A stretch of DNA of 64,000 nt from Helicobacter sp. GTDB lineage: Bacteria > Campylobacterota > Campylobacteria > Campylobacterales > Helicobacteraceae. Positions 10,900 to 54,190 of the stretch are shown piece by piece. Numbering within the stretch: position 1 is the first letter of the stretch; each line of letters starts with the position of its first letter. The stretch lies in assembly GCF_017502485.1 (NCBI RefSeq), contig NZ_JAFVUX010000028.1, positions 1-64,000 on the forward strand. Direction: 5' to 3'. Under the pieces are notes generated by a model, which worked only from the letters and a program-made list of their open reading frames with translations, had not been told where the DNA came from and ran no database searches. The translations under genes were made by a program, and so were the position numbers.

Positions 10900-10990
10900 G
10901 AATGATTGTATCTATTATTTAACACAATTAGTGCTTATATTATTTAATAATAGTGCTCCTCTTTCCCTTATATTATTATTTAATAAGGGC

Positions 10991-11029
10991 GGAATTTAAC
11001 TTCCAGCAATGTAAGAAAGGTTTAAGAAT
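10991..11029 (+). repeat. direct repeat, unit 2
   Basis: Second unit of the repeat starting at 10861. It ends TTTAAGAATC close to the relaxase stop codon. Confidence 0.55.
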
Positions 11030-11072
11030 CGTGCAAGAGTGCAATAAAATGGCTTAGGATAATTGCTATTGC

Positions 11073-12932
11073 CTAAAGTGTTCTTGGTGGTGATTGGGTA
11101 GCTATCTCTTGTTTGCTCGTGTTTGCTTGGCTGGATTCTTTGGATATGGCATTGCTTGGGTTTAAGTCCTTAGATTCTGGTGTTTTGGTTTGTAAAGATT
11201 CTAGCGTGTGTTTAGCAGCATTATGCAAGCCTGTATCAATCACCAAGCCATAATCAATGCCATATCTATCAAAAACCTTTTTACAAAATGCTAGCTCTTT
11301 TTCACAATAGAGATGTTTTTGGTAAAGCCGAAGCGTGGTTTGGAATGCTTGCAGATATAACTCATCAGGCAAAGTTTGTTTAGTATAAGTGCTAGCAAAT
11401 GACTCTAAAAAGGATTTTGATTCTTTAGCTTGGGTTTGTAAATAGCTAAATCGCGCAAGTATTGCAGAATGCAAGCTAGCTTCAAGCTCTGCAATATCGC
11501 TAAGAGCTTTGTCTTTTTGTTTGCTTGATCGCACATCATCAAAGCTCATAGAATCCACAATGCCCCTAAATTTATGCAAGCGATGTAGCTGTTTTTGCAG
11601 GGCAAATGCAGAGCGTTGCTTGGAGCGGCTTTGCTGTAAGACACTTGTAGAAAATTCTGCAAAATGGTGCTGCAAAGCAACACTAGAGTAATGCACTTCA
11701 TTTTTGATGACATTAAGTTTAGCAATTAAATCTTTTGACAAATACCGCTCAAAACCCTTGCAACTACTAAGTAAAGCCTTTTTCTTATGCAGAGCATTAA
11801 AATGCTTAGTAAAGCTAGCAAAGTTTTCATTAGAATCCACTAGCTGCCTAATACCAGCCCTTAAGTGTGCAAGCTGCTTATTATTGTCTTGGATTTGATT
11901 ATGCAAGCAAACAATCCTATCTGCAAGGACACGCTCTTTTTCTATAAGGCGCGTTGGAGTTTTACCTTGTTCTATAATGTGTGCAATCTTTTTGGTAACA
12001 TTGGTGCGATAAATATTTGTGTTTCTGCACTCTTTTTCCAGCTCTTGTGTGTGCAAGTAAAGGGTTTTTGCTTTTATATTAAGAGAGTCCAATGCACGCT
12101 TTTGCGTGATGATATATTCTATATCTTTAATAATTGCCGAGCCATCATCGCTGGAAGCAGATTGCCTAATAGATTCTTCCTTGCTTGCTAGCAAATTTTC
12201 TCTAAATTCCTTGCTGGTAACTTCATTGGTATAGTCAAGCTTACCTTGGGAGTAGGTTAAAAGATTGTAGGCAAAGTCTTCACGCAGCGTGTTAAAAAAA
12301 TTTGAAATCTCTGCTTTATTCTTGAAGTGAAGCTTTTTCTTTGTAAAGATATTGGTTTTGTTGATAATTAGGTGGATATGGGGGCGGTTTTGGTGATTAT
12401 GAGGAATCATCACATATTTATAGTCGGCAAAATTTGCTTGCATTGTTTCACTAACGGCACATTGGAGAATTTCACTAGCTCCTTGGCTAGGGATTTCGTC
12501 AAGCGAAAAAACAAGATGCAACGCTTCATTTGTGTGTGGATTTTTAGAAAAATCCTTGCTCCAATCATCAAGAATCTGCTCATAGCTAAGGGCTCGATGG
12601 CACTGATCAAAAGCTATACCTTGCGCGATTGATTCTTGTAATAAAACTTGCAGGGCATTGTGATTCAAACTTGAGTTTTTTAAACAATAGCCAAGAGCAT
12701 TGCGCAAATGCGCTTGCTTCATATTACCAATATTCTTAATCACAACCTGCTTTTTGTGAGAGCTTGTAGAAAAAATTTGTTTGCTAGTAGAGATGTGGGA
12801 GTGAAATTGCGCAAATGCTTTGCGCTCATAGGGCACTGCACTTTGTTTTTGTTTTTTAAAAGAGACATACTCAAACAGCGACTCATCTTTATCAAGCAAA
12901 TGCTCTGTAACATCAAGCACAACTTTGCGCAT
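11073..12932 (-). CDS. MOBP-type conjugative relaxase (VirD2/TraI-like)
   Basis: The 619-residue protein begins MRKVVLDVTEHLLDKDESLF. Residues 65-230 form the relaxase domain: IKNIGNMKQAHLRNALGYCL contains the likely nucleophile Tyr, and HNHQNRPHIHLIINKTN near residue 180-196 is motif III with its metal-binding His pair. From about residue 250 on, the protein is long charged coiled-coil, ending in a Ser/Thr-rich tail. Such relaxases nick oriT and pilot the strand through the type IV channel. It is transcribed toward the par operon, opposite to all other ICE genes seen. A nic-like site lies 175 bases upstream of its start (13107-13114), which supports the call. Confidence 0.88.
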   Translation of the reverse strand: MRKVVLDVTEHLLDKDESLFEYVSFKKQKQSAVPYERKAFAQFHSHISTSKQIFSTSSHKKQVVIKNIGNMKQAHLRNALGYCLKNSSLNHNALQVLLQESIAQGIAFDQCHRALSYEQILDDWSKDFSKNPHTNEALHLVFSLDEIPSQGASEILQCAVSETMQANFADYKYVMIPHNHQNRPHIHLIINKTNIFTKKKLHFKNKAEISNFFNTLREDFAYNLLTYSQGKLDYTNEVTSKEFRENLLASKEESIRQSASSDDGSAIIKDIEYIITQKRALDSLNIKAKTLYLHTQELEKECRNTNIYRTNVTKKIAHIIEQGKTPTRLIEKERVLADRIVCLHNQIQDNNKQLAHLRAGIRQLVDSNENFASFTKHFNALHKKKALLSSCKGFERYLSKDLIAKLNVIKNEVHYSSVALQHHFAEFSTSVLQQSRSKQRSAFALQKQLHRLHKFRGIVDSMSFDDVRSSKQKDKALSDIAELEASLHSAILARFSYLQTQAKESKSFLESFASTYTKQTLPDELYLQAFQTTLRLYQKHLYCEKELAFCKKVFDRYGIDYGLVIDTGLHNAAKHTLESLQTKTPESKDLNPSNAISKESSQANTSKQEIATQSPPRTL

Positions 12933-13794
12933 AGCTCTCCCCTTACACTAGAAGAATTACTAGCTACACCTAAGTTTTATAACAAGCTAAAAAGTTTGAT
13001 GAAAGTCGCAAAAATCTTTTGCGTGCATTATAAGAATTTTTTGCAAACAACTAACTAAAAATCAAATTATTAAAAATAGCTTAAAAATACATTTTTTGCA
13101 AAATGTGCAGGATAACCCTAATGATGTTCATAGCATAGCTAGAGCACCCTTGCAGTCGGCATTTGGAGTCAATCGCTACTATGTTACGCGATTTCAGGGG
13201 CAAGAAAATGCAAATTTTACTAACAAGCTGTGTAGAAATTTTTATCGCCAAAAATAAGAAAATTTCGTGCATAAGCCATATCCGCACATCAAATCAAATA
13301 TCTCCAACTACTATGGAAAAATAACCAAAGAGCAAAAGAAATAAACCTAAGTGCAGTGCAACTCTTCTCTAAAGCAATCTCAAATCAAACCTTAGAGCAA
13401 AATACTTAAACTTCAAAGCAAAGTTAAGTAACTTGAAGCACTGCCCAAGCTTGCGCTTGCAACAAAGCAGCATAAAGTAGCTCCAAATCAAAAAGTTGTT
13501 TAACTACAAAACCGCAATGCAAGAGCATGGATTTAACACAAACTTTAAGGGGGATAATGGATTTATTTTTGTTTAAGGTTTATTGCTTTAGAATCCCAAG
13601 CAATTTTTTAACTGCTTCAAGTCTAACTTAAAATCACTTTAAATTCTAGGTTTCTAAAGAAACTGCGCTTCGCTCGTTTTCTAAAGAAATCTACTTCGGC
13701 TTTGCCTTGCGCCACTTTGGCGCGCGTTGCCTACGACAACACTCATAAGAACAGAAATGGCGTGATTAGTAAAAGACTAGATTCTAGCTAGAAT
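12933..13794. other. 862-bp gene-free stretch: oriT candidate and ICE/chromosome boundary
   Basis: No gene is supported here. The first 200 bases are AT-rich and hold the relaxase promoter region and the oriT candidate. Beyond about 13,150 the sequence becomes mixed, with GTTTCTAAAGAAAC and TTTCTAAAGAAAT repeats near 13650-13695 and a GC-rich part near 13715-13735. The element's right end probably lies in this stretch, but I could not find a duplicated attachment site because the left end is outside the window. Confidence 0.5.
13089..13114 (-). promoter_or_regulatory. candidate oriT nic site with adjacent hairpin
   Basis: Read on the minus strand, TATCCTGC (13114-13107) equals the classic MOBP nic consensus YATCCTG|Y of RP4/R64-type origins. 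Directly 3' of it on that strand is a perfect 7-bp hairpin, ACATTTT/AAAATGT with a 4-nt loop (13106-13089). It sits upstream of the relaxase gene in a gene-free region, the usual place for oriT. The motif is short, so chance is possible; location and hairpin raise the odds. Confidence 0.5.
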
Positions 13795-13797
13795 CTA
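13778..13797. repeat. perfect 20-bp palindrome (TAGATTCTAG type)
   Basis: TAGATTCTAG is followed at once by its reverse complement CTAGAATCTA. The palindrome covers the stop codon of the PLD-family gene. It belongs to the word family that recurs throughout the chromosome (see findings). Confidence 0.8.
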
Positions 13798-15357
13798 AAT
13801 TTGACTCTCTGGGAAAATCCGCATAAAGAAATTCAAAGTCCTTAGCCACAATGTCGTATCTGGCAAATGCGTTACACATACATCACCATCGCCTTCAGAG
13901 CTACTATAAGCGCACCACTTAGTCTTTTTCCCATCAAGCTCGATATGCCAAGCACCTTGCATATCAAGGTGGATAAGCTTAATGCTCTCTTTTGCAAACT
14001 CTTCATTATCAAAGATCGCTACTACTTCGGTATTAATGATACTTGATCTAGGGTCTAGGTTGAAGCTCCCTATCCACGAGATTTTCTTGTCAAACACAAG
14101 TGTTTTGCTATGCAAGCTCGCCCCAGAAGTTAGCTTACCTTTGATTTGGATTTTGCCAGCACTCTTGCGATACTCATACACCTGCACGCCCATTTTCACA
14201 AGCTTATCTCTATACCGCTCCCAGCCTGCATACACAGGCAAAGAATCCGTGCTTGAGAGAGAGTTTGTAAGCACAAACATCGAAATCCCTTTGTCAATAC
14301 ATTCTTGCATTTCTGCCAAGCCCCTTTTGCCCGGCACAAGATACGCCGAAGAGATATACATAGAATCTGTCGTGTTTCGTATAATATGTTGCAAGGCTTC
14401 ATAGACTTTGCTTGTGGGGTTTTTAGCATCGATCTTTTCTGGTAGGTCTGCGATTAGGCGGGCGCTGCCCCAGTAGATTGTATTAGCGCGCTTGTCATAC
14501 TGCCTGATAATTTCCGCGATAGTTTGCTCATATTGCTCCCACTCACTAGAAGACTCCTCAAGCCCTGCTACAATCTCTTCATAATGCTTCATAAACTTCT
14601 TCATCTTGCGTTTTGATGGCAAAAGCTCCACAGGGATAGCTCGGTGATATTCCCAATACTGCTGGAAACTCTCTCTTGCTTGCTTAGCAATCGCACCGAC
14701 GAAAAGCGCATCTGTATCAGAGAAGTTCACATCTTCTTTGTTGTTAAAGTAATTATCCGCGATATTGCGCCCACCGATGATAAGCCCCACAGAATCCGCT
14801 ATAAAAAGCTTATTATGCATACGGCGATTGATGCGATTAAAGTGCAAGATCATCTCTGGCAAGCGCAAAAACTTAATCCTATTGCGATAAGGGTTAAAGA
14901 TTTTGACCTCAACATTTGGGTGGTTATTAAGCGCGATAATGTCGGAGTAGTCAGAATCTAGCCCATTATCATCAACAAGCATTTTGACTTTCACACCACG
15001 ATTAGCCGCTCGCCAAATCTCATGCATTAGCACGCGAGAAGCAATATCATTTTTATAGATATATGTCTGTATCTCTAGGGAGTAGCGAGCTTTACGCACT
15101 AAGGCTGCGCGCTGCAAAAACGCGCTTGAGCCATCAGCGATAAGCATAGCCCCACTAGAACTAGGCGATAGTGAAAGCTCCTTGGCATAAGGGATGGCTA
15201 TGGGGGAATCTAGCGGATTGAATGCTGCAAAACCACTAGATTCTGGTGGGGTTTTGAGATAGCGCGTTGAGGGAACGATAGAAGCACACCCTGCTAAAAT
15301 AAAAAACAAAAAAAACACAATTAAAGCAATATGCATATCATTCATAAATATATCCAC
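13795..15357 (-). CDS. phospholipase D/cardiolipin synthase family lipoprotein (ClsC-like)
   Basis: Residues 8-22 form a signal peptide ending in the lipobox LAGC, so the protein is probably an inner- or outer-membrane lipoprotein. Two HKD motifs are intact: MHNKLFIADSVGLIIGGRN near residue 180 and LHSKTLVFDKKISWIGSFN near residue 420. This is the form of ClsC/YmdC enzymes, which make cardiolipin from phosphatidylglycerol and phosphatidylethanolamine, though some relatives are nucleases. At 520 residues it is of normal length. It stands alone, divergent from flaA and next to the ICE boundary. Confidence 0.85.
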   Translation of the reverse strand: MDIFMNDMHIALIVFFLFFILAGCASIVPSTRYLKTPPESSGFAAFNPLDSPIAIPYAKELSLSPSSSGAMLIADGSSAFLQRAALVRKARYSLEIQTYIYKNDIASRVLMHEIWRAANRGVKVKMLVDDNGLDSDYSDIIALNNHPNVEVKIFNPYRNRIKFLRLPEMILHFNRINRRMHNKLFIADSVGLIIGGRNIADNYFNNKEDVNFSDTDALFVGAIAKQARESFQQYWEYHRAIPVELLPSKRKMKKFMKHYEEIVAGLEESSSEWEQYEQTIAEIIRQYDKRANTIYWGSARLIADLPEKIDAKNPTSKVYEALQHIIRNTTDSMYISSAYLVPGKRGLAEMQECIDKGISMFVLTNSLSSTDSLPVYAGWERYRDKLVKMGVQVYEYRKSAGKIQIKGKLTSGASLHSKTLVFDKKISWIGSFNLDPRSSIINTEVVAIFDNEEFAKESIKLIHLDMQGAWHIELDGKKTKWCAYSSSEGDGDVCVTHLPDTTLWLRTLNFFMRIFPESQI

Positions 15358-15459
15358 TGGATTTAATTGATGTCGTGCTTTATGCGCGATAATTGCGTCA
15401 AATCCGCGCTTTTTGACAATCGCAAATTATAGCAAATCGTAATATTTTTACAAAAAACA

Positions 15460-15489
15460 TTACAACTTTTTTCGTTTTTGACCGATTAT
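15460..15489 (+). promoter_or_regulatory. sigma28 (FliA)-like promoter of flaA
   Basis: CCGATTAT at 15482-15489 resembles the FliA -10 consensus (GCCGATAA) and is preceded at proper distance by a T-rich -35 region. H. pylori flaA is known to be sigma28-dependent. The gene starts 58 bases downstream behind AAAAAGGAG. The -10 match is partial, so this is probable rather than certain. Confidence 0.5.
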
Positions 15490-15547
15490 ATCCCTGTCAA
15501 AGGCAAGGAAGCCTGAAGACTTAATCATTTTCAAAAAGGAGTTTCAA

Positions 15548-17092
15548 ATGGCGTTTCAAATTAACACCAACATCAACGCTCTTAACGCACACGCTCAGAG
15601 TGTAGGCACACAGCTAGGTCTCAAAAATTCTTTGGAAAAGTTGAGTTCAGGTCTTCGTATCAATAAGGCAGCGGATGACGCTTCTGGTATGATTATCGCG
15701 GATTCTTTGCGCTCTCAAGCAAGTGCATTGGGACAAGCGATTGCCAACACAAACGATGGTATTGGGATTATCCAAATTGCGGATAAGGCGATGGATGAAA
15801 TGTTAAAAATTCTTGACACAGTGAAAGTCAAAGCTACTCAAGCTGCACAAGATGGGCAAACAACAATTTCAAGAAAAGCGATCCAAAACGACATTATCCG
15901 CTTGATCCAAGGTCTTGACTATATTGGTAACACCACTTCTTACAACGGACAGGCTCTTCTCTCTGGTCAATGGACTAACAAAGAGTTCCAAGTTGGTGCA
16001 TATTCTAACCAATCTATTAAGGCAAGTATCGGCACTACTACTTCGGATAAAATTGGGCAAGTGCGCTTAGAAACAGGAGCTATGATCACTTCTTCTGGTG
16101 AAGTTAGCTTGAAGTTTAAGGCTGTCGATGGTGTCAATGATGTCCAGCTAGAATCTGTGAAGATCTCTCACTCTTCAGGCACAGGTCTAGGGAATCTTGC
16201 TGAAGTCATCAACAAAAGCTCTGATAAAACAGGTATCCGCGCAAATGCTATCGTGCTTTCTACTTCTAATGAAGAGATCAAAGCGGGCGACTTGAGACAA
16301 CTTGTTATCAACGGCTTTACACTTGGTGATATTATTGGTATTAAGCAAGCCGACTCTGATGGGCGATTGGTGCAGGCTATCAATGGTGCTACCGCTGAGA
16401 CAGGTGTAGAAGCTTATACAGATAATGAAGGGCGACTTAACCTACGCAGTATCGATGGACGAGGGATTGTTGTTACATCAAACAATCAAGGCTCTAACTC
16501 TCCTGTAGCGATTGAGAAGATCAATGATCAAGAAATCGAAGGAACTACAACAGATGGTGTGCCAAATGGTGGCTCTATCAACTATGGACGCCTAGCGATG
16601 ACTCGCCTAGATTCTAGGGACATTATCGTATCTGGGACAAATATTAGCTCCACAGGTTATGGTGATGGACAAAATGTCGCTGAATGGGTTGCTAACTTGC
16701 GCGATGTTTTAGGCGTGTTTAATGAAGCCGTGCGCTCTGCTGCTGGTGCGAATGAAAACAATGCCGAAGCTTTGAACAACAGGATTCTAGGTGCTGGTGT
16801 TACGACACTTCGAGGTGCGATGATCGTTATGGATATTGCAGAATCTGCTGGAAGAACACTTGATAGAATCCGTGCGGATCTTGGTTCAGTGCAAGGACAA
16901 ATGCAAGCCACAGTTAATAACATCACCATCACTCAAGTGAATGTTAAAGCAGCTGAAAGCCAGATCCGTGAAGTGGATTTCGCAAGCGAATCTGCTGAGT
17001 TTAACAAATTTAGCATCCTTGCACAATCTGGAAGCTACGCGATGAGCCAAGCAAACGCTGCGCAACAAAACATTTTAAGACTACTTTCTTAA
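15548..17092 (+). CDS. flaA: flagellin A, major flagellar filament subunit
   Basis: The 514-residue protein starts [20 protein letters not shown] and ends [10 protein letters not shown], the conserved coiled D0/D1 ends of Helicobacter FlaA. N-terminal [20 protein letters not shown] and C-terminal [19 protein letters not shown] are canonical; the central D2/D3 region (about residues 180-400) is variable. It is exported by the flagellar type III apparatus and polymerised with FlaB. A FliA-like promoter precedes it and a GC hairpin follows. Helicobacter flagellins are usually glycosylated with pseudaminic acid. The second flagellin, at 45113, matches FlaB instead. Confidence 0.95.
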
Positions 17093-17109
17093 GTGTTTGC
17101 GACTTTGGA

Positions 17110-17126
17110 CTTGGGGACTCCCCAAG
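17110..17126. terminator. terminator hairpin between flaA and msrA
   Basis: CTTGGGG (17110-17116) pairs with CCCCAAG (17120-17126) over a 3-nt loop, between convergent genes. A T-rich stretch lies about twenty bases beyond. It probably serves both strands. Confidence 0.6.
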
Positions 17127-17146
17127 CCTAAAGCTCAAAACTATTT

Positions 17147-17722
17147 TTATCTTTCTTTACTTCTTATTTTTGCTAAGTTTAGATTCTGCATATCTGCGCT
17201 ATAACAGTCATCTCTAGAGCTTGTATCCCATAGCTTCAAAGCAGAATCTATATTGATATGGCAGTAGCCTTGCGGGTTAGCTTGCAGGTAGTTTTGGTGG
17301 TAGGGTTCTGCTAGGTAGAAGTTTTGCAAGGACATAGCTTCTGTAGCTGCCTTGCGAGCATTGCGCTGCTCCCAAAGCCTAATGCGCTCTATGATAATGT
17401 CCAAATCACCGCCACACTCTTGCAAATAATACACACCATTGCGATATTGAGTACCGATGTCATTGCCTTGATAGTTAAGCGCACTAGGATCAATGATAGC
17501 AAGTAGCCTATCGACGATCTCACCAAGCCCTAGACGCTTCTCATCATAACAAAGCTCTAGTGCCTCTACCGCGCCACTTATCCCAGAGCAGACAAGCTCA
17601 TAGCTAGGGTTTGCAATGTGTGAGTTTGCATAGCCTACGCTAGATTCTAGCACGCCAGACACGCGCGCAAAATACGCCTGTATCCCCCAGAAGCACCCAC
17701 CAGCTAGATAAATTTTGCGCAT
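17147..17722 (-). CDS. msrA: peptide methionine sulfoxide reductase MsrA
   Basis: The protein begins [24 protein letters not shown], with the GCFWG active-site motif whose Cys attacks methionine-S-sulfoxide. [19 protein letters not shown] and [20 protein letters not shown] follow as expected, with a possible resolving Cys near the end. At 191 residues it is a stand-alone MsrA without a fused MsrB. It repairs oxidised methionine in proteins. It lies 20 bases downstream of lemA on the same strand. Confidence 0.94.
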
Positions 17723-17742
17723 AGATTCTATCTCTTCAAATC

Positions 17743-18333
17743 TTAGAATTGCACTTTAGGTGCGGACTCTAGCTGCTGCGCATCAAACTCTAATGTCTTG
17801 CGATCATCTCTTAAGCGTGCAAACATTGCGGAGATAAGCACATTAGGGAAGCTTTGCTTGTAGATGTTAAAGTTGGTTACACTATCGTTGTAGGCTTGGC
17901 GGGAGAAGGCGATTTTATTCTCCGTGGTGGAGAGCTCTTCAGTAAGAGAGAGCATATTTTGACTAGCTTTTAAATCTGGGTAGGCTTCTATCGTGATATT
18001 TAGCCCTTGGAGCGCGTGCGTTAGGGTGGATTCTGCTTGGGCTAATGTACTTAAATGCGCGCCATCTAAACTAGAATCTACTTTTTGCAAGGCGACTTTA
18101 GCAGCACTTCTTGCTTCCACAACTCTAACCAATGTTTGCTCCTCGTGGGAGAGATAGCGTTTTGCTACTTCGACGAGATTTGGGATAAGGTCATAGCGTC
18201 TCTTTAGCTGCACTTCCATCTGTGCGAAAGCATTTTCCACACGATTAAGCAGCAAAATCAAGTGGTTATAAACACTTATGCCATACACTAGCAAAGCCAG
18301 CACGATAAGCCCAGTAATCACAGCCCACGCCAT
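17743..18333 (-). CDS. lemA: LemA family membrane-anchored protein
   Basis: Residues 2-22 form one membrane helix ([20 protein letters not shown]). The rest is the helical LemA domain with its conserved [20 protein letters not shown] and [19 protein letters not shown] segments, and [20 protein letters not shown]. The predicted layout is a short N-terminus outside or inside the membrane and a helical bundle. Its function is poorly known. It is transcribed divergently from rpoD and leads into msrA. Confidence 0.9.
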
Positions 18334-18381
18334 TAGACACTACCTGTTTTAGATTTTATATTTACACAAGATAAAACATTA

Positions 18382-18387
18382 TACAAT
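18382..18387 (+). promoter_or_regulatory. -10-like box upstream of rpoD
   Basis: TACAAT within ATTATACAATCC lies 94 bases before the rpoD start in the lemA/rpoD divergent gap. Match and spacing suit a sigma70 promoter. Confidence 0.4.
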
Positions 18388-18475
18388 CCGCGCTTTAAAA
18401 ATCCTTTTATCAGCCGATGTTCGCTAGTCATGGTCTCTTAAATCCTAACCCGAATCCACCCTAAAAGGCACACAA

Positions 18476-20341
18476 ATGTCTACAAAAACAATCAACCAGC
18501 AATTAGAAGAGCTCTTTACCACCTCTGAGCAGAAGATGATTTCCCACGAGTCTATTGCACAGATTCTAAAAAAACCCCCCACAAGTGCACAGACGAAGAA
18601 AATCATAGACCTAGCCAAAAAGCATAAATGCGAGCTTGTAAGCTCCTCTGAGCTAGCCAAAACACTCAACACCCAAGATAAAATCAAGCTTGAAGAAGAG
18701 CGCAAGAAACTCCTAGATGAAGAGCTTGAAGAAGAGTTTGACTTTATGAAAGAGCGCGAGCTACTTGAGTGGAGCAGAAGCGATAGCCCTGTGCGTATGT
18801 ATCTGCGTGAAATGGGACAGATCGACCTACTCACCAAAGAAGAAGAAGTCGAGCTAAGCAAGCAGATAGAATTTGGCGAAAACATTATCCTTGATGCTAT
18901 TTGCTCTGTACCTTACTTGATTGACTTTATCTATGACTACAAAGACGCGCTAATTAACCGAGAGCGCCGCGTCAAAGAGCTATTTAAAAGCTTTGATGAT
19001 GAAAGCGATAGCGATGGAGAAAACTTCGAAGAAAACGAGGAAGAAGAGAGCGAAGATGATAGCGAGGAAGGCAAGCGCCCCATTTCTAAGAAAGATCAAA
19101 AGCGGATCGATAGAGTACTAGAGAGTTTTAAAGCCCTTGAAAAAGCAAAAAAGGACTGGCTAAAGGTGCTAGAATCCCACGCAGATACGAAGTTTGAGAA
19201 CAAGACTCAAGAGCTTGTGTTTATCCTAACGCTTGCGCATAAAAAGGAGGTGCTAAAGTCTAAGCTCCTTGATCTAGGACCTACAAGTAAGCTCATTAAC
19301 GAAATTGTAAAAGCTATGGAAAATAGCCTAAAAAATGGTGATGGCTTCGAGAAAGAGCTAGCCCGCTTAGAATACAAGCTTCCGCTCTTTAATGACACTC
19401 TAGTCCAAAACCACCAGAAAATCCTTAGCAATATCACCAATATGAGTCGCGATGATATCATCCAAGCAGTGCCAGAAGCGACTATGGTAAGCGTCTATAT
19501 GGAGCTAAAAAAGCTCTTCCAAACCAAAGAAGCAAGCGAGAGTAGCTTCAATATCGACCCAGAAAAACTCAAAGAGATTTTAGAGCAAATCAAGCGCGGT
19601 AAATCAATCTCCGATAAAGCCAAAACCAAAATGGCAAAGTCCAATCTCCGCCTAGTTGTAAGTATCGCTAAGCGTTATACCAACCGCGGACTACCATTCC
19701 TAGATCTTATCCAAGAGGGCAATATCGGGCTAATGAAAGCAGTGGATAAGTTTGAGTATGAAAAAGGCTTTAAATTCTCCACTTATGCAACTTGGTGGAT
19801 ACGCCAAGCCATCTCGCGCGCGATCGCTGACCAAGCCCGAACCATTAGAATCCCTATCCACATGATAGAGACAATCAATAGAATCCACAAAATCATACGC
19901 AAGCACCTGCAAGAGACAGGCAAGGAGCCAGATGTCGAAGTCATCGCGGAAGAGGTGGGGTTAAGTGTGGATAAAGTCAAAAATGTCATAAAGATCACCA
20001 AAGAGCCTGTGAGCCTTGAAGCACCTATTGGCAGTGATGATGATGGGAAGTTTGGCGACTTTGTCGAAGATAAAACGACCTTAAGTGCTATGGACTATAT
20101 CTTAAAAGAAGACCTACGCGCCCAGATTGATGAAGTGCTATCCCAGCTCAATGAGCGCGAGCAATCTGTGATCAAAATGCGCTTTGGGCTACTAGAGGAT
20201 GAGAGCGATCGCACGCTAGAAGAGATTGGTAAAGAGCTGAATGTAACGCGTGAGCGCGTGCGCCAAATAGAATCTAGCGCGATCAAAAAGCTCAAACACC
20301 CAAAAGTGGGCAGAAAGCTTAAAAACTACATAGAAGAGTAA
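18476..20341 (+). CDS. rpoD: RNA polymerase primary sigma factor RpoD (sigma70)
   Basis: Region 1.1 covers the first 80 residues. Region 1.2 has SPVRMYLREMGQIDLLTKEEEVELSKQIE near 103. An acidic nonconserved insert (about residues 180-200, EENEEEESEDDSEEG) follows. Region 2 includes YTNRGLPFLDLIQEGNIGLMKAVDKFEY and FSTYATWWIRQAISRAIADQ; region 4.2 has the helix-turn-helix near TLEEIGKELNVTRERVRQIESSAIKKL. At 621 residues it is complete. It recognises TATAAT-type promoters without strong -35 boxes in this group. The glycosyltransferase reading frame begins two bases after its stop. Confidence 0.97.
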   Translation: MSTKTINQQLEELFTTSEQKMISHESIAQILKKPPTSAQTKKIIDLAKKHKCELVSSSELAKTLNTQDKIKLEEERKKLLDEELEEEFDFMKERELLEWSRSDSPVRMYLREMGQIDLLTKEEEVELSKQIEFGENIILDAICSVPYLIDFIYDYKDALINRERRVKELFKSFDDESDSDGENFEENEEEESEDDSEEGKRPISKKDQKRIDRVLESFKALEKAKKDWLKVLESHADTKFENKTQELVFILTLAHKKEVLKSKLLDLGPTSKLINEIVKAMENSLKNGDGFEKELARLEYKLPLFNDTLVQNHQKILSNITNMSRDDIIQAVPEATMVSVYMELKKLFQTKEASESSFNIDPEKLKEILEQIKRGKSISDKAKTKMAKSNLRLVVSIAKRYTNRGLPFLDLIQEGNIGLMKAVDKFEYEKGFKFSTYATWWIRQAISRAIADQARTIRIPIHMIETINRIHKIIRKHLQETGKEPDVEVIAEEVGLSVDKVKNVIKITKEPVSLEAPIGSDDDGKFGDFVEDKTTLSAMDYILKEDLRAQIDEVLSQLNEREQSVIKMRFGLLEDESDRTLEEIGKELNVTRERVRQIESSAIKKLKHPKVGRKLKNYIEE

Positions 20342-36851: not shown

Positions 36852-36984
36852 ACTCCTCTAAAAAACTCCAATGCTTTTTAGCTCCTATCTCTTTATCTTG
36901 TAACATTTCAGCAAATTGTTAGAGCATCTTGCTTAGAATATACTATACCCGCACCAAATCAAGCAAAACCAACAAGGAGAGACA

Positions 36985-39900
36985 ATGCTCTTTGAAGACA
37001 TTATCCAGCGAATTTACCAAGATAGCTTAAGCACTAGGCAGCAAGGTAGCAAGTTTGAAAAGCTTGTGAAAAAGCTCTTGCAGCTTGCTCCAAGCTTTAA
37101 CGCACGCTTTGCAGATGTGTATCTATGGAGTGAGTTTAGCGATGCCTTTGGGCTAGCACAAAATGACATAGGCATAGATATAATGGCGCGCGATTTTGAT
37201 GGCAAATGGGTAGCGATCCAGTGCAAAGCCCTAGAGCCAAGCACAAGCCTAGCTCTAGCAGATTTGAAAAACTTCTTAGGAGTGCGCACGATCACTTCAC
37301 CTAGTGGCAAAGTGTTTTGCCATATTTCCCAGCACCTAATCTTCCACACCTGCAAAGATGTCTCTCAAAATGTCTTTAAAGCCCTGCAGCAAGCCCAAGA
37401 TAGCACAACACTTGAAGCCAAAGCTTATGGCTACTACGATTTGCAAGAGCTTGGGATCTTGTGGGAGAGCTTTGATACAGATGATATAAACTCTCTTAAG
37501 CTAAGTGGCAAAAAGCAGCTACGAGAGCACCAAAAGCAAGCCTTAAGTGCCATACAAAGCCACTTTATAGAGCAGGGCAATACACGAGGGAAAGTGATAA
37601 TGGCGTGCGGCACGGGCAAAAGCCTGCTAGCTATCCGCACCATAGATAGCCTAGTAAATCCGGGTGAAATCGCACTTTTCTTAGCACCAAGCCTAGCCCT
37701 AATCGATCAAATGATAAAAGAATTTTTCAAAGAAAGCCTATCGCCTAGCTACCAAGTCTTTGCCGTATGCAGTGATGGCAAGGTCGGCTCTGCTAAAAGC
37801 GAAGATTTGCACGAAAATGAGCTATGTATCTCCCCCACCACAAGCCCCAAAGCTCTAGCACACGCGATAAATGTAATGCTTGTTAATGTTGCTATTTCTA
37901 CGGGGGGGGGGGGGGACAATGCGCATAGCCTAAAATCTGTCCCCAAAATTGTCATTTTCTCCACCTACCAAAGCCTAGATGTTATCATAGACTCACAAAA
38001 GCTCTTTAACAAACCCCTTAAAATCATCATAAACGACGAAGCCCACCGCACCGCTGGCGTGCAAAAGCTCGATGAGTCCGGTAATGTCAAAGAAATCAGC
38101 GTATGGCAAAAAACACATAATAATGACTTGCTAGATTCTACCTATCGTTTATATCTAACAGCTACACCAAGGATTTATAGCGATAAAGCTAAAGACAATT
38201 TGAAAGAAAAATCCCAAGGCAACGACCTGTCCCTTTTCTCAATGGACGATGAAGCCACCTTTGGCAAGGAGATCTACTCCCTTAGATTCCACCAAGCCAT
38301 CAAGCAAAATCTCTTAAGCGATTATCGTGTGGTGATTAGCTATATGCGTAAAGAGTATTTAGCCGAGTATCTAGGTAAGCTCACCAAAGCTCAAGAGAAG
38401 CTCAATATAACCTTAGAAGATGCAGGGAAGATGGTCGCCTTCTCCCACGCTCTAAAAAAGCGTAACTTAAACTTCGTCGATGAAAATGGTGCGTTTGAAA
38501 ACTATGTAGATGACACACCTATGCGCCGTGCAGTGGCGTTTCACCGATCTATTAGAAACTCTAAGGTTATGACTAGCTTTTTCTCCGGGGGAGAAAGCCC
38601 CATTGATAAAGACACGATTTTCACCCATATTGATGGCACAGACAATGCCTACGCCAAGTCCAAAAAGCTAGGCTGGCTAGCCCAAGATCTAGGCGAGCAA
38701 GAAGCACGCGTCCTAAGCAATGCCAAGTGCTTGACAGAGGGTATTGATGTGCCTAGTCTTGATGCGGTATGCTTCTTTGACAAGCGGGATTCTGTGGTAG
38801 ATATAGTCCAAGCAGTAGGGCGAGCGATAAGAAAGAGTGATGGCAAGAAATATGGCTATATTATCCTGCCTTTGGTGCTAAGTGATGAAGAGATAAAAAA
38901 CTACGATAAAACGCTCAACGAAGATAAATTCAAAATCGTATGGCAGACGCTCAAAGCCCTTAGAAGCCACGATGAGCGGCTTATCGATGAAGCTAGGATT
39001 GCTGAAGTAGTAAGCATATCAGCAGAGTGGGAGCCTAGTGAGATCCCAGAGTCGCTGCTTTTCTCTCTTAGCGAGCTTTTCACCGAGATGAAAAACGCCG
39101 TGCCTAAAAACTTAGGCGACCTGCAGTATTGGGAAAACTACGCAAGCAAAGTCGGCGATATTATGCAAGCTCTCATACTTCGCATACAAGCCCTGCTAGA
39201 TTCTAGCCCTGCTATACAAGAGCTCTTTGCCACCTTTTGCAAAGCCCTGCAGAGCAACCTAAACGCTAGCTTTGATGAGAGGCAAGCCATAGCCCTAGTA
39301 GCCCAGCACATCATCACAAAGCCTATTTTTGAGTGTATATTCCCAAGTCTTGACTTCACCACATTTGACAAAGTCTCTGCCGAGCTAGAGAAGCTCCACA
39401 GCAAGCTCCTAGAGCAAGGGCTAAATGCCGAGACAAAGACGCTAGAGAAGTTCTACACCTCCGTGCGCCAGAGTGCCGAGTATGCCAAAAGCGATAAATC
39501 CAAACAAAGCTTAATCAAAAATCTCTACAATACCCTATTCAAAAAAGCGTTCAAAAAGACACAAGAAAAGCTAGGCATAGTCTATACCCCCATTGAGGGC
39601 GTAGATTTTATCGTTCACTCAACCCAATACCTCTTGCAAAAGCACTTTGGCAAATCTCTAGGCGATGAGCATATCCACATAGCAGACCCATTTACCGGCA
39701 CAGGCACATTTATCACCCGCACGATACAAAGTGGCTATTTAGACTCGAGGCTAGAATCTAAATTTGCTAAAGAGCTATGGGCAAATGAGATTACACTGCT
39801 AGGATACTATATCGCACAGATAAACATCGCCACCACTTACCACGAAAGACTTCTATATCTTAGGGATTCAGTATTGAGCGATAAATCGGCGATTGCTTCG

Positions 39901-41076
39901 CGCGCGCTGCGGTTACATACACCAAATATGCGCCCTTGCACGCACTCACAAAGCCCCGATTTCTCATCGCAATCCTTAGAATCCCAAGGCGGTGATACTA
40001 CCCTAGAATCCACTTTTGAAACTAGAATCCTTGAAGAAGAAAGCCAAGCTTCCCAATCGTCATCGCGAGCCGACACCCCCTCTCCGTCATTGCGAGGCGA
40101 TACAATCGCCGAAGCAATCCACACAAAGGCACAAAAGCTAGATTCTAGTATGGATTGCCACGCGGACAAGTCCGCTCGCAATGACAAAAATCTAAACGAG
40201 CAAGCAAAGGATTCTAGGATTTGCGAAAACACTCAAAGTGTCGCCACCCAGCAGGCGGAAGCAGTTGAGATGAGAAATCGTGGCTTTCAAGCTGGAGGCG
40301 AAGGGAGTTACCTAAGCGGTAATGACCGAGCCTCCAGCGCAGAATCCGCGATTTATCGCTCAAATGCGACGCCCACAGAGATAAAGCTTTTTGATAATTT
40401 ACTCTTCACCGACACCTTCAACACCTACGCCCCAGACTCCAAAGGCTTCAAGGGCAGGAGAGAAGACCCCAAGCTCTTTGATAGCGAATATTTGGAGAAA
40501 AACTACGCCAAAATCCAAGAGTTTAAAAACACCGAGTTTAAAATCTTTATGAGTAATCCCCCATATTCCGCTAAGCAAGAATCTGTAAATGATGATAATG
40601 CCAATGAAAAATCCCCCCATATTGACAAACGCATAAGCGAAACCTACCGAGCCAAGTCCCTAGCCACTAGCACCAAAAACACCAACTTTGACTCTTTCAA
40701 ACGCGCCCTGCGTTTTATGAGCGATAGGATAGGAGAGAGCGGGGGGATTATAGGGCTTGTAGTCAATGGCAGTTTCTTAGAGAGCAATAGCGATGATGGC
40801 TTGCGCGCGTGCTTAGAAGCAGAGTTTGACTATATCTATATCTTTAATCTTAGGGGCAATCAACGCACTTCCGGCGAGACTTCACGCAAAGAAGGCGGCA
40901 AATTCTTTGACTCCGGCTCACGCACCCCTGTGGCGATATGCTTTTTTGTCAAGCTAGATTCTAGTGCAGAATCTAGCTTGACAATAAAACCGATACCCCC
41001 TCTCCGTCATTGCGAGGCGGTGGCAAAGCCACCAACGAAGCGATCCATAAATCCACGCAAGTGGATTCTAGTGTGA
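36985..41076 (+). CDS. type ISP-like restriction-modification enzyme: nuclease, DEAH helicase and adenine methyltransferase; phase-variable, C-terminus cut off by frameshift
   Basis: ATG 36985 follows AAGGAGAGACA. Residues 15-125 hold an Mrr-like nuclease (IGIDIMARDFDGKWVAIQCK, catalytic D/QxK). Residues 170-640 form an SF2 helicase with Walker A ACGTGKS near 208 and box NDEAHR near 349. The methyltransferase begins near 860, with SAM motif DPFTGTGTF near 901 and NPPY near 1191. These two motifs lie unusually far apart because a Ser-rich insertion with palindromic repeats fills about residues 975-1130. A G14 tract (37902-37915) encodes the Gly4 at about residue 308 and is in frame here. The frame ends prematurely at 41076 inside another insertion; the target-recognition part continues in a different frame from 41010. 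Confidence 0.85.
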   Translation: MLFEDIIQRIYQDSLSTRQQGSKFEKLVKKLLQLAPSFNARFADVYLWSEFSDAFGLAQNDIGIDIMARDFDGKWVAIQCKALEPSTSLALADLKNFLGVRTITSPSGKVFCHISQHLIFHTCKDVSQNVFKALQQAQDSTTLEAKAYGYYDLQELGILWESFDTDDINSLKLSGKKQLREHQKQALSAIQSHFIEQGNTRGKVIMACGTGKSLLAIRTIDSLVNPGEIALFLAPSLALIDQMIKEFFKESLSPSYQVFAVCSDGKVGSAKSEDLHENELCISPTTSPKALAHAINVMLVNVAISTGGGGDNAHSLKSVPKIVIFSTYQSLDVIIDSQKLFNKPLKIIINDEAHRTAGVQKLDESGNVKEISVWQKTHNNDLLDSTYRLYLTATPRIYSDKAKDNLKEKSQGNDLSLFSMDDEATFGKEIYSLRFHQAIKQNLLSDYRVVISYMRKEYLAEYLGKLTKAQEKLNITLEDAGKMVAFSHALKKRNLNFVDENGAFENYVDDTPMRRAVAFHRSIRNSKVMTSFFSGGESPIDKDTIFTHIDGTDNAYAKSKKLGWLAQDLGEQEARVLSNAKCLTEGIDVPSLDAVCFFDKRDSVVDIVQAVGRAIRKSDGKKYGYIILPLVLSDEEIKNYDKTLNEDKFKIVWQTLKALRSHDERLIDEARIAEVVSISAEWEPSEIPESLLFSLSELFTEMKNAVPKNLGDLQYWENYASKVGDIMQALILRIQALLDSSPAIQELFATFCKALQSNLNASFDERQAIALVAQHIITKPIFECIFPSLDFTTFDKVSAELEKLHSKLLEQGLNAETKTLEKFYTSVRQSAEYAKSDKSKQSLIKNLYNTLFKKAFKKTQEKLGIVYTPIEGVDFIVHSTQYLLQKHFGKSLGDEHIHIADPFTGTGTFITRTIQSGYLDSRLESKFAKELWANEITLLGYYIAQINIATTYHERLLYLRDSVLSDKSAIASRALRLHTPNMRPCTHSQSPDFSSQSLESQGGDTTLESTFETRILEEESQASQSSSRADTPSPSLRGDTIAEAIHTKAQKLDSSMDCHADKSARNDKNLNEQAKDSRICENTQSVATQQAEAVEMRNRGFQAGGEGSYLSGNDRASSAESAIYRSNATPTEIKLFDNLLFTDTFNTYAPDSKGFKGRREDPKLFDSEYLEKNYAKIQEFKNTEFKIFMSNPPYSAKQESVNDDNANEKSPHIDKRISETYRAKSLATSTKNTNFDSFKRALRFMSDRIGESGGIIGLVVNGSFLESNSDDGLRACLEAEFDYIYIFNLRGNQRTSGETSRKEGGKFFDSGSRTPVAICFFVKLDSSAESSLTIKPIPPLRHCEAVAKPPTKRSINPRKWILV
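37902..37915 (+). repeat. G14 homopolymer, phase-variation tract
   Basis: Fourteen G between the Walker A and DEAH motif regions of the restriction enzyme. The frame is open with 14. Loss or gain of one would truncate the protein after about 310 residues, removing helicase and methyltransferase together. Confidence 0.88.
40086..40185 (+). repeat. cloverleaf palindromic element, copy A (in-frame in restriction gene)
   Basis: Outer arms GTCATTGCGAG (40086-40096) and CTCGCAATGAC (40175-40185); left hairpin GGCGAT/ATCGCC; central stem GCAATCCA (40114) and TGGATTGC (40151); right hairpin GCGGAC/GTCCGC. The loop of the central stem contains CTAGATTCTAG. Coding frame gives SLRG, EAIH, LDSS, DCHA and ARND in order. 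It lies between methyltransferase motifs I and IV. Confidence 0.85.
40291..40338 (+). repeat. second palindromic family, 48-bp copy 1
   Basis: GCTGGAGGC (40291-40299) pairs with GCCTCCAGC (40330-40338) around a core AAGGGAGTTACCTAAGCG followed by GTAATGACCG. The same core with different arms recurs at 53292-53338 in the NAD(P)H-hydrate repair gene. Confidence 0.7.
40948..40982. repeat. 15-bp perfect inverted repeat at the frameshift
   Basis: GTCAAGCTAGATTCT (40948-40962) and AGAATCTAGCTTGAC (40968-40982) pair perfectly over AGTGC. It lies at the end of the intact methyltransferase frame and just before element B and the frame change. It is the strongest coding-strand hairpin seen in the window. 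Confidence 0.85.
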
Positions 41077-41114
41077 AAGTGGATTGCCACGCGGACAAGT
41101 CCGCTCGCAATGAC
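41006..41114 (+). repeat. cloverleaf palindromic element, copy B (at the frameshift)
   Basis: Outer arms at 41006-41016 and 41104-41114 as in copy A, exactly 109 bp. Left hairpin is GGTGGC/GCCACC; right hairpin is GCGGAC/GTCCGC. In the frame of the downstream ORF it reads SLRGGGKATNEAIH, then DSS, DCHADKSARND; in the upstream frame it reads to a stop at 41076. Confidence 0.85.
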
Positions 41115-42863
41115 GATAAAACAAGTCCCCTTAGTCATTGCGAGACTTCCGCAGGAAGTCGCGGCAATCCACAACCAAGCAAAGCCAAAATCTACTACTA
41201 CGACATCGGCGACTACCTAGACCGCCAAACCAAGCTAAACATTATCCAAAACTTCAAATCCATAGAATCTATGGAAACTCAAGGGCTTTTCACTCTCATC
41301 ACGCCCAACAAAGACTACGACTGGATAAATCAGCGTGATTATAGCTTTATGGCTTTCACTCCTATGGGTAGCACAGGACAGAAGCTAAAGCCCCTAGCCA
41401 TAAACGCTAAAGGCGAATTAGAGCTAGAAATCTTTGAGATTTTCTCTCAAGGCGTGGTAACAGGCAAAGATAATTGGAGCTTTAACTTCTCTAAAGAGAA
41501 TCTAGCCAAAAACATTGCCCTTTGTATTGATACCTATAACACCGAGCGAGAAGCCCTAGCAGCAAACCCAGCTCATAAGCTCTGTAATGACCTAAGCAAG
41601 GTTACTTGGGGTGGGAGCTTAGATAAAAGAGTAAGAGCAAATAGAGAGCTAGTCTTTGATGAAAGCAGGATTAGAGTCTGCTCTTATCGCCCTTTCACAA
41701 AGGAGTTTTTATATTTTGGTAATGGCTATAACCATAGCCATTACCAAATGGATAAAATTTATCCATTTGGTAATAAAGGCGAGGCGATAGCCTGTATAAA
41801 TGGGGGGTTTGAAAATGTGGCAATTGCTATGAATGGTGGTGGTGATAGAAAAGAATTTTCAGCACTTATACATAATTTGATTACAGAACTTGGCACATTA
41901 CCAAATGGGCAAAACTTCCCGCTCTACTACTATGAGCGAGTAGAATCTAACGCAGAAAATGGGCAGATGACTATGGACTATGACCTAGCAGAATCCAGCG
42001 GCAACGCCTTTTCTCCGTCATTGCGAGGCGGTGGCAAAGCCACCAACGAAGCAATCCACAAAAATACGGATTCTAGTGCGGAAGTGGATTGCCACGATTC
42101 TGCTAGTGCAGAATCTCGCAATGACAAAAATACTGCCTACTATCGCAGAAAAGATGCCATAAGAGATGAAGCCCTAGCATTTTTCCAAAATGCCTATAAT
42201 GACAGCACCATTACAAAAGAAGATATGTTTTATTATATCTACGCTATTTTAAATCACCCCGCCTACATCGCTAAATACAAAGACAATCTCTCCAAAATGC
42301 TCCCTAGAATCCCGCTTATGCAGGACTTCTGGGGATTTGTGGCAAGCGGCAGGGCATTAGCAGGGCTACATATCAACTATGAGAGCTATAATAAGCCAGA
42401 TTCAAGGGCTTTTGCCTGCTTGGCAAAGGACTTGCAAGAGTTTAAGACAAGTGCTAAAGGCTTGTTTGAAAAAGACTTTAGGCAAAAGGCTAGAGAAGAT
42501 ATAGAGCATTTAAGTGAAGAAGACTTTAGGATAGAGACGATAAAATTTCACACCAAAGGCGTGAAAGATAGCATTTTGCTTAATGACAAAATCGCCATAG
42601 TCAATATCCCGCACAAGGCTTATGCGTATAAAGTCAATGGCAAAAGCGCGATAGAGTGGATACTAGATCGCTACAAAATCAGCACCGATAAAGCAAGCGG
42701 CATAGTCAATGACCCAAATCTCTATGAGAGCACAAGCGGGGCATTGAAGGGGCTAAAGGGCGGGCGATATGTCTGCGCGCTACTACTCTCTATCATCGAA
42801 ATGAGTGTGCGCACAAGCGAGGTCCTAGAATCTATGCCAGAGTATAAGCTACTAGAGAGCTAG
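41010..42863 (+). CDS. target-recognition and C-terminal part of the split restriction-modification enzyme
   Basis: This frame is open from about 40979 but has no credible start or ribosome site; 41010 is only a TTG. The first 50 residues are encoded by palindromic elements. From about residue 60 (KAKIYYYDIGDYLDRQTKLNII) the sequence continues the methyltransferase/target-recognition region of type ISP enzymes, with YSFMAFTPMGSTG, RICSYRPFTKEFLYFG-like and ALAGLHINYESY segments up to the native C-terminus. The frame differs by one from the upstream ORF, so the enzyme is split here. It needs a single-base change, or expression as a separate polypeptide, to be functional. A third palindromic copy (42017-42125) interrupts it in frame. 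Confidence 0.75.
   Translation: MRGGGKATNEAIHKSTQVDSSVKVDCHADKSARNDDKTSPLSHCETSAGSRGNPQPSKAKIYYYDIGDYLDRQTKLNIIQNFKSIESMETQGLFTLITPNKDYDWINQRDYSFMAFTPMGSTGQKLKPLAINAKGELELEIFEIFSQGVVTGKDNWSFNFSKENLAKNIALCIDTYNTEREALAANPAHKLCNDLSKVTWGGSLDKRVRANRELVFDESRIRVCSYRPFTKEFLYFGNGYNHSHYQMDKIYPFGNKGEAIACINGGFENVAIAMNGGGDRKEFSALIHNLITELGTLPNGQNFPLYYYERVESNAENGQMTMDYDLAESSGNAFSPSLRGGGKATNEAIHKNTDSSAEVDCHDSASAESRNDKNTAYYRRKDAIRDEALAFFQNAYNDSTITKEDMFYYIYAILNHPAYIAKYKDNLSKMLPRIPLMQDFWGFVASGRALAGLHINYESYNKPDSRAFACLAKDLQEFKTSAKGLFEKDFRQKAREDIEHLSEEDFRIETIKFHTKGVKDSILLNDKIAIVNIPHKAYAYKVNGKSAIEWILDRYKISTDKASGIVNDPNLYESTSGALKGLKGGRYVCALLLSIIEMSVRTSEVLESMPEYKLLES
41134..41171 (+). repeat. cloverleaf palindromic element, left half only
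   Basis: GTCATTGCGAG (41134-41144) is followed by the hairpin GACTTCC/GGAAGTC and GCAATCCA (41164-41171), then ends. It equals the left half of elements A-C with yet another hairpin arm, lying twenty bases after copy B. Confidence 0.75.
42017..42125 (+). repeat. cloverleaf palindromic element, copy C (in-frame)
   Basis: Outer arms at 42017-42027 and 42115-42125, again exactly 109 bp. Left hairpin GGTGGC/GCCACC as in copy B; right hairpin is GATTCTGC/GCAGAATC, different from B but still self-complementary. Encodes SLRGGGKATNEAIH, DSS, DCHDSASAESRND within the recognition-domain ORF. Confidence 0.85.
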
Positions 42864-52243: not shown

Positions 52244-54190
52244 TTATAGCGCGCCTAAATGCTCAATCAAGCGCAAAGGCGTTAGCGCATAGGTGTTTTT
52301 CTCTTTAGTGGCGGCTTTGGCGTGGGCTAGTGAGCCATAAATCGCAGAATCTAGCGGGCTAAAACCTTGCGCTAAATAGCTTGCGATAACACCGCTAAGC
52401 ACATCGCCACTACCACCTTTAGCAAGCGCACTTGTGCCTAAGGGGTTGATATAGAGCTTGCCATTATGAGCGATGATTGGGTTTGCCCCTTTAAGCAGAA
52501 GTGTGGGGGCTTTGTAGGCTTGAGTGAAGCACAGGGCTAACTCGAAGCGATTGTGTGCGACTTCTGCTATATCACCACTAAACAGCCCGCATAAATGCAA
52601 AAGCGCGTGGAACTCTTTGGGATGGGGAGTTAGGACAAGATTGTGCGCGGAAGTGGATTCTAGGAGGGGGAGTAAAGAGTGCTCATAAAACACATCTGCA
52701 TCAAGCACACACAATCTATCTCCAATGAAGCTAGGCTCAAGCAAGCAGCCAAAGCCACTGCCAAGCCCCATACCTAGGCATAGGACATTGGCATTCTCAG
52801 GGATTGAGTGGGGATACATAAGCTCATTTTGCTGGGGTAAGGTCGATTGGGCTTTCTTGGTGGATTCGGCTTTCGGGCTAAAATCGTGGATTTCTTCGGC
52901 TCGCTGTGGGGATGGACCGCAAGTCTTATCCCCTTGCTCGCCTTGAAAAACCCCGATTTGTAGCTCCAAAATCCTAGAATCCTGCGCCGAGTTGTTTAGA
53001 TTTTGGGCGTTGCTAGAATCCACTTTTGCTTCTGTCTGTGGGTTGGTTGCATTTGCGGCGTTATTTCCGTCATTGCGAGCAAGCGCGCTAGTGCTTGCGT
53101 GGCAATCCATAGCTTCAAGGCTAGAATCTGCGTTTTGATTATGGATCGCCACGCCGCTTTGCACGGCTCGCGATGACAACTCTAGCGCGGTTTGGTTGTC
53201 TGCAAAGATTCTAGCTTTTTCACTCTGCTTTTGGGATTCTAGCCCATTATCCTCGCGGCAGGATTTTTGAGCTAAAAATGGGGCTTTGCAAGGTGAGTCA
53301 AGGGAGTTACCTTGAGTGGTAATGACCGCAGACTCGCCGCAGCAATCGCCATTTTTAGCCAAAAAGCCAACGCGCCCTTGCTCACCCAAAGCGCAATCCC
53401 TGCTAACCACACTCACTAGCCCCGCCCCCATTCTCAGCCCACTTAACGCACTAAGCGTTGCCGCTCCAGCCTTCTCCCCAGAAATAACTGCAATATGCCC
53501 AAATGTGCCTTTATGGCAGTTTTGCTTCGTGCGGTGGGGCAAGCGCATATCACTCTCTTCTAGGAGATAAAAGGGGCTTTGCACTTCAAAAAGCTCTCGC
53601 GATACACCTAGATCTCCCACTAGCACCTGCCCGACAATATCCTTTGCCATATCACTAAAGAGCGCGACTTTTAGCGCACCCATACTAAGCGTGTAATCCG
53701 CGCTAAAGGCATAGGACTCCACATACCCTTGCAAATTTAGTCCGCTTGGTATATCGCACGCGATTTTTATCCGCGCACAAGTATTCATCTGCTCCAAAAG
53801 CCTGATAGACTCCGCGCTTAGTTCCCCAGCAAACCCACTGCCAAAGAGACAATCAACCAGCACATCACAGGGCAGAAGCTTTTTGACCCACTCACAGCCT
53901 GCCACTTGCGCGCGCTCACTTTGGATCTTACACAAGCGCGATTTAGGCTCTCTTGCCTCATAGATTCTAGTGATATAGCTACCTTGGAGCTTCCTAGCGC
54001 AAGCGTAGCCATCTGCGCCATTATCTCCACTCCCACACACGATTGTAACCACGCTACCTTTATGCGTGAGCTTATCAATAAGCTTAAGCAAAGCATTAGC
54101 AGCATTTTCCATAAGTAGCTCATCACTTAAGAGATACCTTGAGATTGCACGCTTATCAAGTGCTTGTGTCGTGGTGTAGAGATAACGCAC
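52244..54190 (-). CDS. nnrD: bifunctional NAD(P)H-hydrate epimerase/dehydratase (NnrE-NnrD) with large repetitive insertion
   Basis: Residues 1-205 are the NnrE-type epimerase (GSGDNGADGYACARKL near 55, VDCLFGSGFAG near 111). The ADP-dependent dehydratase domain spans the rest, with VISGEKAGAATLSALSGLRMGAGLVSVV near 235, LTPHPKEFHALL near 525 and AKGGSGDVLSGVIASYLAQG near 590. Between them, about residues 285-460, the sequence is Ser/Asn/Gln-rich and coded by palindromic repeats (53069-53177 and 53292-53338), although the reading frame stays open. The enzyme repairs hydrated NAD(P)H. It forms a minus-strand pair with the dehydrogenase upstream. Confidence 0.88.
   Translation of the reverse strand: MRYLYTTTQALDKRAISRYLLSDELLMENAANALLKLIDKLTHKGSVVTIVCGSGDNGADGYACARKLQGSYITRIYEAREPKSRLCKIQSERAQVAGCEWVKKLLPCDVLVDCLFGSGFAGELSAESIRLLEQMNTCARIKIACDIPSGLNLQGYVESYAFSADYTLSMGALKVALFSDMAKDIVGQVLVGDLGVSRELFEVQSPFYLLEESDMRLPHRTKQNCHKGTFGHIAVISGEKAGAATLSALSGLRMGAGLVSVVSRDCALGEQGRVGFLAKNGDCCGESAVITTQGNSLDSPCKAPFLAQKSCREDNGLESQKQSEKARIFADNQTALELSSRAVQSGVAIHNQNADSSLEAMDCHASTSALARNDGNNAANATNPQTEAKVDSSNAQNLNNSAQDSRILELQIGVFQGEQGDKTCGPSPQRAEEIHDFSPKAESTKKAQSTLPQQNELMYPHSIPENANVLCLGMGLGSGFGCLLEPSFIGDRLCVLDADVFYEHSLLPLLESTSAHNLVLTPHPKEFHALLHLCGLFSGDIAEVAHNRFELALCFTQAYKAPTLLLKGANPIIAHNGKLYINPLGTSALAKGGSGDVLSGVIASYLAQGFSPLDSAIYGSLAHAKAATKEKNTYALTPLRLIEHLGAL
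53069..53177 (-). repeat. cloverleaf palindromic element, copy D (in-frame in nnrD)
   Basis: Outer arms GTCATTGCGAG (53069-53079) and CTCGCGATGAC (53167-53177, one change), exactly 109 bp. Central arms GGCAATCCAT and ATGGATCGCC; left hairpin GCAAGC/GTGCTTGC-type; right hairpin GCCG/GCACGGC-type. On the coding strand it reads SSRAVQSGVAIH, DSS, AMDCHASTSALARND, the same frame as copies A-C. Confidence 0.82.
53292..53338 (-). repeat. second palindromic family, 47-bp copy 2
   Basis: GGTGAGTC (53292-53299) and GACTCGCC (53331-53338) flank the core AAGGGAGTTACCTTGAGTGG that continues TAATGACCG, shared with 40291-40338. It is inserted in the opposite orientation to the host gene here and still leaves the frame open. 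Confidence 0.68.

Follow-up and report, generated by a model that had tools for sequence, protein, structure and literature searches.

Host gene, insert and palindromic modules

The window, that is, the whole 64,000-nucleotide stretch of DNA that was analysed, belongs to a relative of Helicobacter canis (GCF_017502485.1, the studied genome). It contains nnrD, whose product carries the Pfam domains YjeF_N (1.4e-32) and Carb_kinase (1e-37) and matches the solved homologue PDB 3k5w at 2.1e-114 (Table 1). Alignment reveals a low-complexity insert of 187 residues within the C-terminal dehydratase domain, where 3k5w has a 6-residue loop; the insertion point falls between 3k5w positions 275 and 282. 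An earlier note on this DNA had described a Ser/Asn-rich region of about 170 residues between the epimerase and dehydratase motifs, which has to be corrected in both length and place, since Pfam and 3k5w indicate that the insert splits the dehydratase domain instead. In the AlphaFold2 model, the flanking domains mostly have pLDDT values of 85-98, residues 278-320 and 340-454 of the insert fall below 50, and a helix at 317-343 reaches about 65; the insert is predicted to be disordered. The enzyme around it shows dN/dS values of 0.07-0.15, which indicates purifying selection.

Table 1. Features of nnrD and of the Type ISP restriction-modification gene in the window
Feature	Coordinates	Strand	Description or basis
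nnrD, bifunctional NAD(P)H-hydrate epimerase/dehydratase	52244..54190	-	648 aa, GTG start; ORF, Pfam and PDB matches
In-frame insert, residues 269-455 of NnrD	52826..53386	-	alignment to 3k5w and relatives; predicted disordered
F1, palindromic element, 109 bp	53069..53177	-	outer stem, hairpin 1, inner stem, loop, inner stem, hairpin 2, outer stem
F2, second palindromic repeat (RVGFLAKNGDCCGESAVITTQGNSLDSPCKAPFLAQKSC)	53258..53374	-	roughly a dozen matches (70 bp or longer) at other places in the studied genome
F3, inverted F2 copy on the opposite side of F1 (NLNNSAQDSRILELQIGVFQGEQGDKTCGPSPQRAEEIHDFSPKAESTKKA)	52850..53002	-	arm complementarity with F2
F3b, companion segment after F1 (GNNAAN...AQNLNNSAQDSRI)	52970..53068	-	dispersed, one frame
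F1 copy, Type ISP restriction-modification gene	40086..40185	+	element search, in-frame reading
F1 copy, break point of the Type ISP frame	41006..41114	+	element search, ORF comparison
F1 copy, Type ISP C-terminal ORF	42017..42125	+	element search, in-frame reading

The element F1 begins with GTCATTGCGAG, ends with CTCGCGATGAC and has terminal inverted repeats of 11 bp with one mismatch; its fold on the + strand has a predicted minimum free energy of about -57 kcal/mol. The outer stem is formed by GTCATTGCGAG/CTCGCAATGAC and the inner stem by TGGCAATCCA/TGGATTGCCA, with two variable hairpins flanking the inner stem and a loop that usually contains GATTCTAG. On the coding strand, F1 translates in the nnrD frame as SSRAVQSGVAIHNQNADSSLEAMDCHASTSALARND, in which the peptides AIH, DSS, DCHAST and ARND named in the earlier note are all present; the terminal repeats, strong fold and in-frame reading bear out its account of a 109-bp palindromic copy inside nnrD. 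At the conserved 3' end, two of the three reading frames are open, and the one used here (the RND frame) is hydrophilic, with a mean GRAVY of -0.86 versus 0.02.

Judged from its sequence, F1 is one module of a nest that holds several palindrome families, not a solitary insertion. F2 and F3 belong to one family, whose inverted copies flank F1 and are both dispersed in the studied genome. Their self-complementarity scores (64 for F2, 54 for F3) exceed the shuffled maxima of 46 and 40, respectively, and their arms are complementary to one another at 86% (52948-52975/53260-53287) and 76% (52868-52900/53336-53368). For F3b, 50 of 64 matches in the sampled genomes are in sense orientation and in the same frame. 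A further palindrome, F0, is present in NnrD orthologues.

The claim that the nnrD copy is read in the same frame as those of the restriction gene holds in that the element frame (S-L-R ... R-N-D) is common to all three Type ISP copies; however, the 41006 copy does not share the frame of the upstream Type ISP part and continues only the downstream ORF. The studied genome and H. canis carry inserts at the same three places of this gene, with different contents. Type ISP is a single 2038-aa ORF in H. canis and is split here (36937-41073 / 40977-42860) at the 41006 element, and this break may be a real frameshift, phase variation or an assembly error. Directly upstream of the same element is a hairpin, TCAAGCTAGATTCTAG...CTAGCTTGA (region 40930-41260). 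Elsewhere in the window, a 77-bp direct repeat occurs at 476-552 and 6603-6679 (94% identical, 6.1 kb apart).

Occupied and empty sites among relatives

Across 121 Helicobacteraceae genomes, most NnrD ORFs measure 460-540 aa and nearly all of the matches lack the insert. Long NnrD proteins (648-756 aa) with this insert occur only in the studied genome, H. canis CCUG 32756T (G001, its closest named relative) and G004, together termed the canis clade. The empty site that the earlier note had proposed to seek by aligning NnrD of several Helicobacter is found in the sister species G002 (529 aa) and G003 (502 aa), and the outcome it had set against its own reading, a comparable insert in every NnrD of the Campylobacterota, is not what the Helicobacteraceae display. 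The long NnrD proteins of the g3 genomes were considered as further cases and rejected, as the motif is absent from those genes.

F1 sits at the same NnrD position in all three genomes of the canis clade, and this copy is old because they share it at one place. Outside hairpin 1, a single difference in 96 bp of F1 separates the studied genome from G004, whereas about 30% of third positions differ in the NnrD domains; the probability of at most one difference in the 32 third positions of F1 is 1.5e-4. Hairpin 1 has been swapped whole between these two genomes (CCGTGCAAAGCGG versus ATTTGCCCCAGCAAAT) with its pairing kept. By this sequence comparison, the F1 DNA in NnrD is more conserved than the surrounding enzyme, which could be explained equally by a constraint acting on the DNA and by interspecies exchange. 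The mobility suggested earlier agrees with the dispersal of the element, its absence from most NnrD proteins and its presence or absence at orthologous sites of other genes, but the NnrD copy is not a recent insertion, given the position shared by three species and the single difference from G004.

Two other genes show occupied and empty sites. NAD kinase ORFs without an insert measure 314 aa (G003) and 326 aa (G002), and those with one measure 361 aa in the studied genome, 420 aa in G001 and 522 aa in G004; they have one common insertion site filled with differing modules, F1 being found in G004 only. An oxidase lacks the insert in G002, carries F3-type modules in the studied genome, and carries F1 plus F3-type modules in G004. 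Both NAD kinase and NnrD stay conserved around their inserts. The compared sites are nested, and none of them offered a clean single-element empty site with target duplication.

Genomic copies, reading frame and arm pairing

The exact motif GTCATTGCGAG occurs 61 times in the studied genome (1.80 Mb, 47 contigs) versus 2 for the reversed control, and half motifs number 61 there, 112 in H. canis and 408 in G004 (control, 0-2). Genomes were sampled rather than read whole, and an element counts as in a gene when it lies within an ORF of at least 150 aa. By this definition, 44 of 60 non-redundant sampled elements of the canis clade lie within ORFs of unrelated proteins, compared with 0 of 9 sampled copies in G002, all intergenic, and 1 of 5 in G073; 13 of 43 G004 elements lie outside such ORFs. 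Most canis-clade copies are genic, and the intergenic fraction is small. The F1 hosts include NAD kinase, DAP epimerase, MurJ, a GlmS-like protein, a DnaG-like primase, methylases, transport proteins and glycosyltransferases. The interrupted primase may not be the essential one, because a second copy of ordinary length exists in G001 and G004. The regions 1-20000 and 60001-80000 of G004 contig C1 form a duplicated stretch that has identical elements and a DnaG-like primase with an in-frame element.

The RND frame is used in 48 of 53 in-ORF elements and the other open frame in 5 (p 7e-10), a count that covers the canis clade plus G042 and G046, two second-genus genomes with in-gene copies, and that should be read with the caveats that these elements are partly copies of one another, hence not independent events, and that location within an open ORF itself selects for open frames. 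Among 218 cases, 139 have a 3' arm whose length is 1 mod 3; in G002, 4 of 21 do. As a matter of arithmetic, arms of this length in the used frame pair third codon positions with third positions, which would let a stem drift while barely altering the peptide.

The F1 layout with other hairpins was found in further Helicobacteraceae genera, and the half motif abounds in certain unrelated bacteria and occurs in unrelated phyla. A Campylobacteraceae MAG (G126) has 220 exact copies of GTCATTGCGAG within 1.4 Mb, most of them not in long ORFs, and is an independent high-copy intergenic version of the motif. The coding-compatible design proposed in the earlier note has the one preferred frame in its favor but has to be qualified: most copies of the motif in G002, G073 and this MAG are intergenic, two of three frames are open at the 3' end, and the G002 arms have no coding-frame length preference. 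In some lineages, the element has secondarily adapted to coding sequence.

The side hairpins of F1 vary in sequence yet remain self-complementary. Among 39 distinct segments of 40 nt with arms of 19 nt, 87% of cells were paired, versus 61% after shuffling and 26-45% in slid pairings, and arm covariation was 0.674 versus 0.193 when shuffled; over all arm lengths, the mean z of the 117 distinct arms relative to shuffles was -2.4. Arm changes were double-sided in 74 cases and one-sided, of the G-U type, in 3. Selected RNA helices usually change through G-U steps. Because such intermediates are nearly absent, maintenance at the DNA level, through template switching or the exchange of whole hairpins, is suggested in place of selection on RNA.

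The loop motif GATTCTAG (extended consensus TAGATTCTAGC) occurs 79 times in the window (1-64000) versus 2.9 expected, with 41 and 38 occurrences on the two strands and hence no strand bias. It is dense in G000 and G004 and sparser in G002 and G003, and it is present in 68 of 74 canis-clade elements versus 0 of 9 in G002. These counts suggest GATTCTAG as a candidate DNA-uptake-type signal. That the coding palindromes of the canis clade carry it as such, with natural transformation and nest-to-nest recombination as their means of spread, is a tentative idea that we consider rather doubtful; if true, surface loops of housekeeping enzymes would be continually rebuilt from shared palindromic modules.

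Interpretation and known systems

At the level of sequence, the element is multi-copy, has empty orthologous sites, is constrained in frame and arm length and shows strong arm covariation. We consider it likely (probability roughly 0.8) that F1 is a coding palindromic repeat, nested in a surface loop of the dehydratase, translated and tolerated. A multi-copy DNA palindrome would persist mostly within genes in the H. canis clade, its used frame giving a peptide that is hydrophilic and probably disordered. The NnrD nest, made of two palindrome families, would have grown in the dehydratase surface loop before the studied genome, H. canis and G004 split; the insert is most likely translated and retained in the mature enzyme, and we propose that it is tolerated because the loop is exposed. 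Copies probably spread by recombination between repeats or by transposition activity supplied in trans, and arm complementarity may be preserved at the DNA level, by way of a cruciform, a single-strand hairpin or template switching. Reverse transcriptase (PF00078) is absent from the studied genome and G002, and no plasmid records resembling a sister copy of the element were found at E<=0.01.

The strong covariation of the hairpin stems would also be expected if arm complementarity were kept for a functional RNA structure, acting for example in translation pausing or mRNA stability. The balance of 74 to 3 favors DNA copying or whole-hairpin exchange, and with Rfam gathering scores the window yields only a tRNA, F1 matching no known RNA family; we regard this explanation as unlikely. 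To a similar degree improbable is the view that these are ordinary intergenic REP/MITE-type repeats whose in-gene copies are frame-sparing leftovers in genes turning neutral. It draws on the mostly intergenic motif of G002, G073 and the Campylobacteraceae MAG, on its occurrence in unrelated phyla, and on those canis-clade copies that lie outside ORFs or out of frame, such as the one at 41006. However, NAD kinase and NnrD are conserved around their inserts, one frame outnumbers the other open one, and the canis-clade copies lie mostly in genes and not in the small intergenic fraction. Strong secondary structure and placement in essential enzymes could further point to an insert that is removed before the protein works, as an intron, a bypassed segment or a protein-splicing unit. 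This seems very unlikely: removal or bypass at the RNA level needs no open frame, yet frame and arm lengths are constrained, the element has no Rfam match, and Pfam scans of the host proteins gave no intein domain.

A coding palindromic repeat of this kind shares with REP/RAYT systems the short, multi-copy palindromes, but the RAYT domain PF01797 has no match in any of five genomes of the genus, and the copies here are mostly genic whereas REP are mostly extragenic. QMITE1 of Coxiella, a small inverted-repeat element, is at times fused in frame to genes (PMC5896051, PMC10969869); unlike in such MITEs, the coding position here is the rule, not the exception. At the nested sites no target duplication was found, and no parent transposon was noticed. 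Inverted repeats inside protein-coding genes have also been outlined for Nematomorpha mitochondria (PMC6649704), where they are mitochondrial, long and perfect. A search of the open-licence literature yielded nothing relevant on GTCATTGCGAG-type palindromes, Helicobacter coding repeats or GATTCTAG.

The Rickettsia palindromic elements (RPEs), as summarized from Ogata et al. 2000, 2002 in PMC10969869, are in-frame palindromes in unrelated genes with a conserved peptide. They measure about 150 bp and form ten families, with 44 integrations in R. conorii, nearly half of them in ORFs; coding palindromes have been reported as recurrent yet unique to Rickettsia, and the same 2024 review calls a similar mechanism elsewhere conceivable (PMC10969869). 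The Helicobacter elements resemble them as self-complementary palindromes of about 100-150 bp, in several families, in frame in unrelated genes, where they code for a conserved peptide, and with empty orthologous sites (NnrD, NadK, oxidase). They differ in phylum and sequence, in a higher copy number by half-motif counts (408 in G004), in the nesting of several families in one loop, and in side hairpins that vary yet remain self-complementary. This Helicobacter lineage is in culture, its genomes each have dozens to hundreds of half motifs, located in essential enzymes, and close relatives carry the same motif between genes; this makes a route from selfish DNA to protein testable, and allows one to ask if the host proteins tolerate the extra peptides or make use of them. 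The RPE1 model TIGR01045 gave no match over its cut-off in five genomes; we claim no RPE membership and do not equate the elements with RPE1 by sequence, but by functional description and analogy they appear to work like RPEs.
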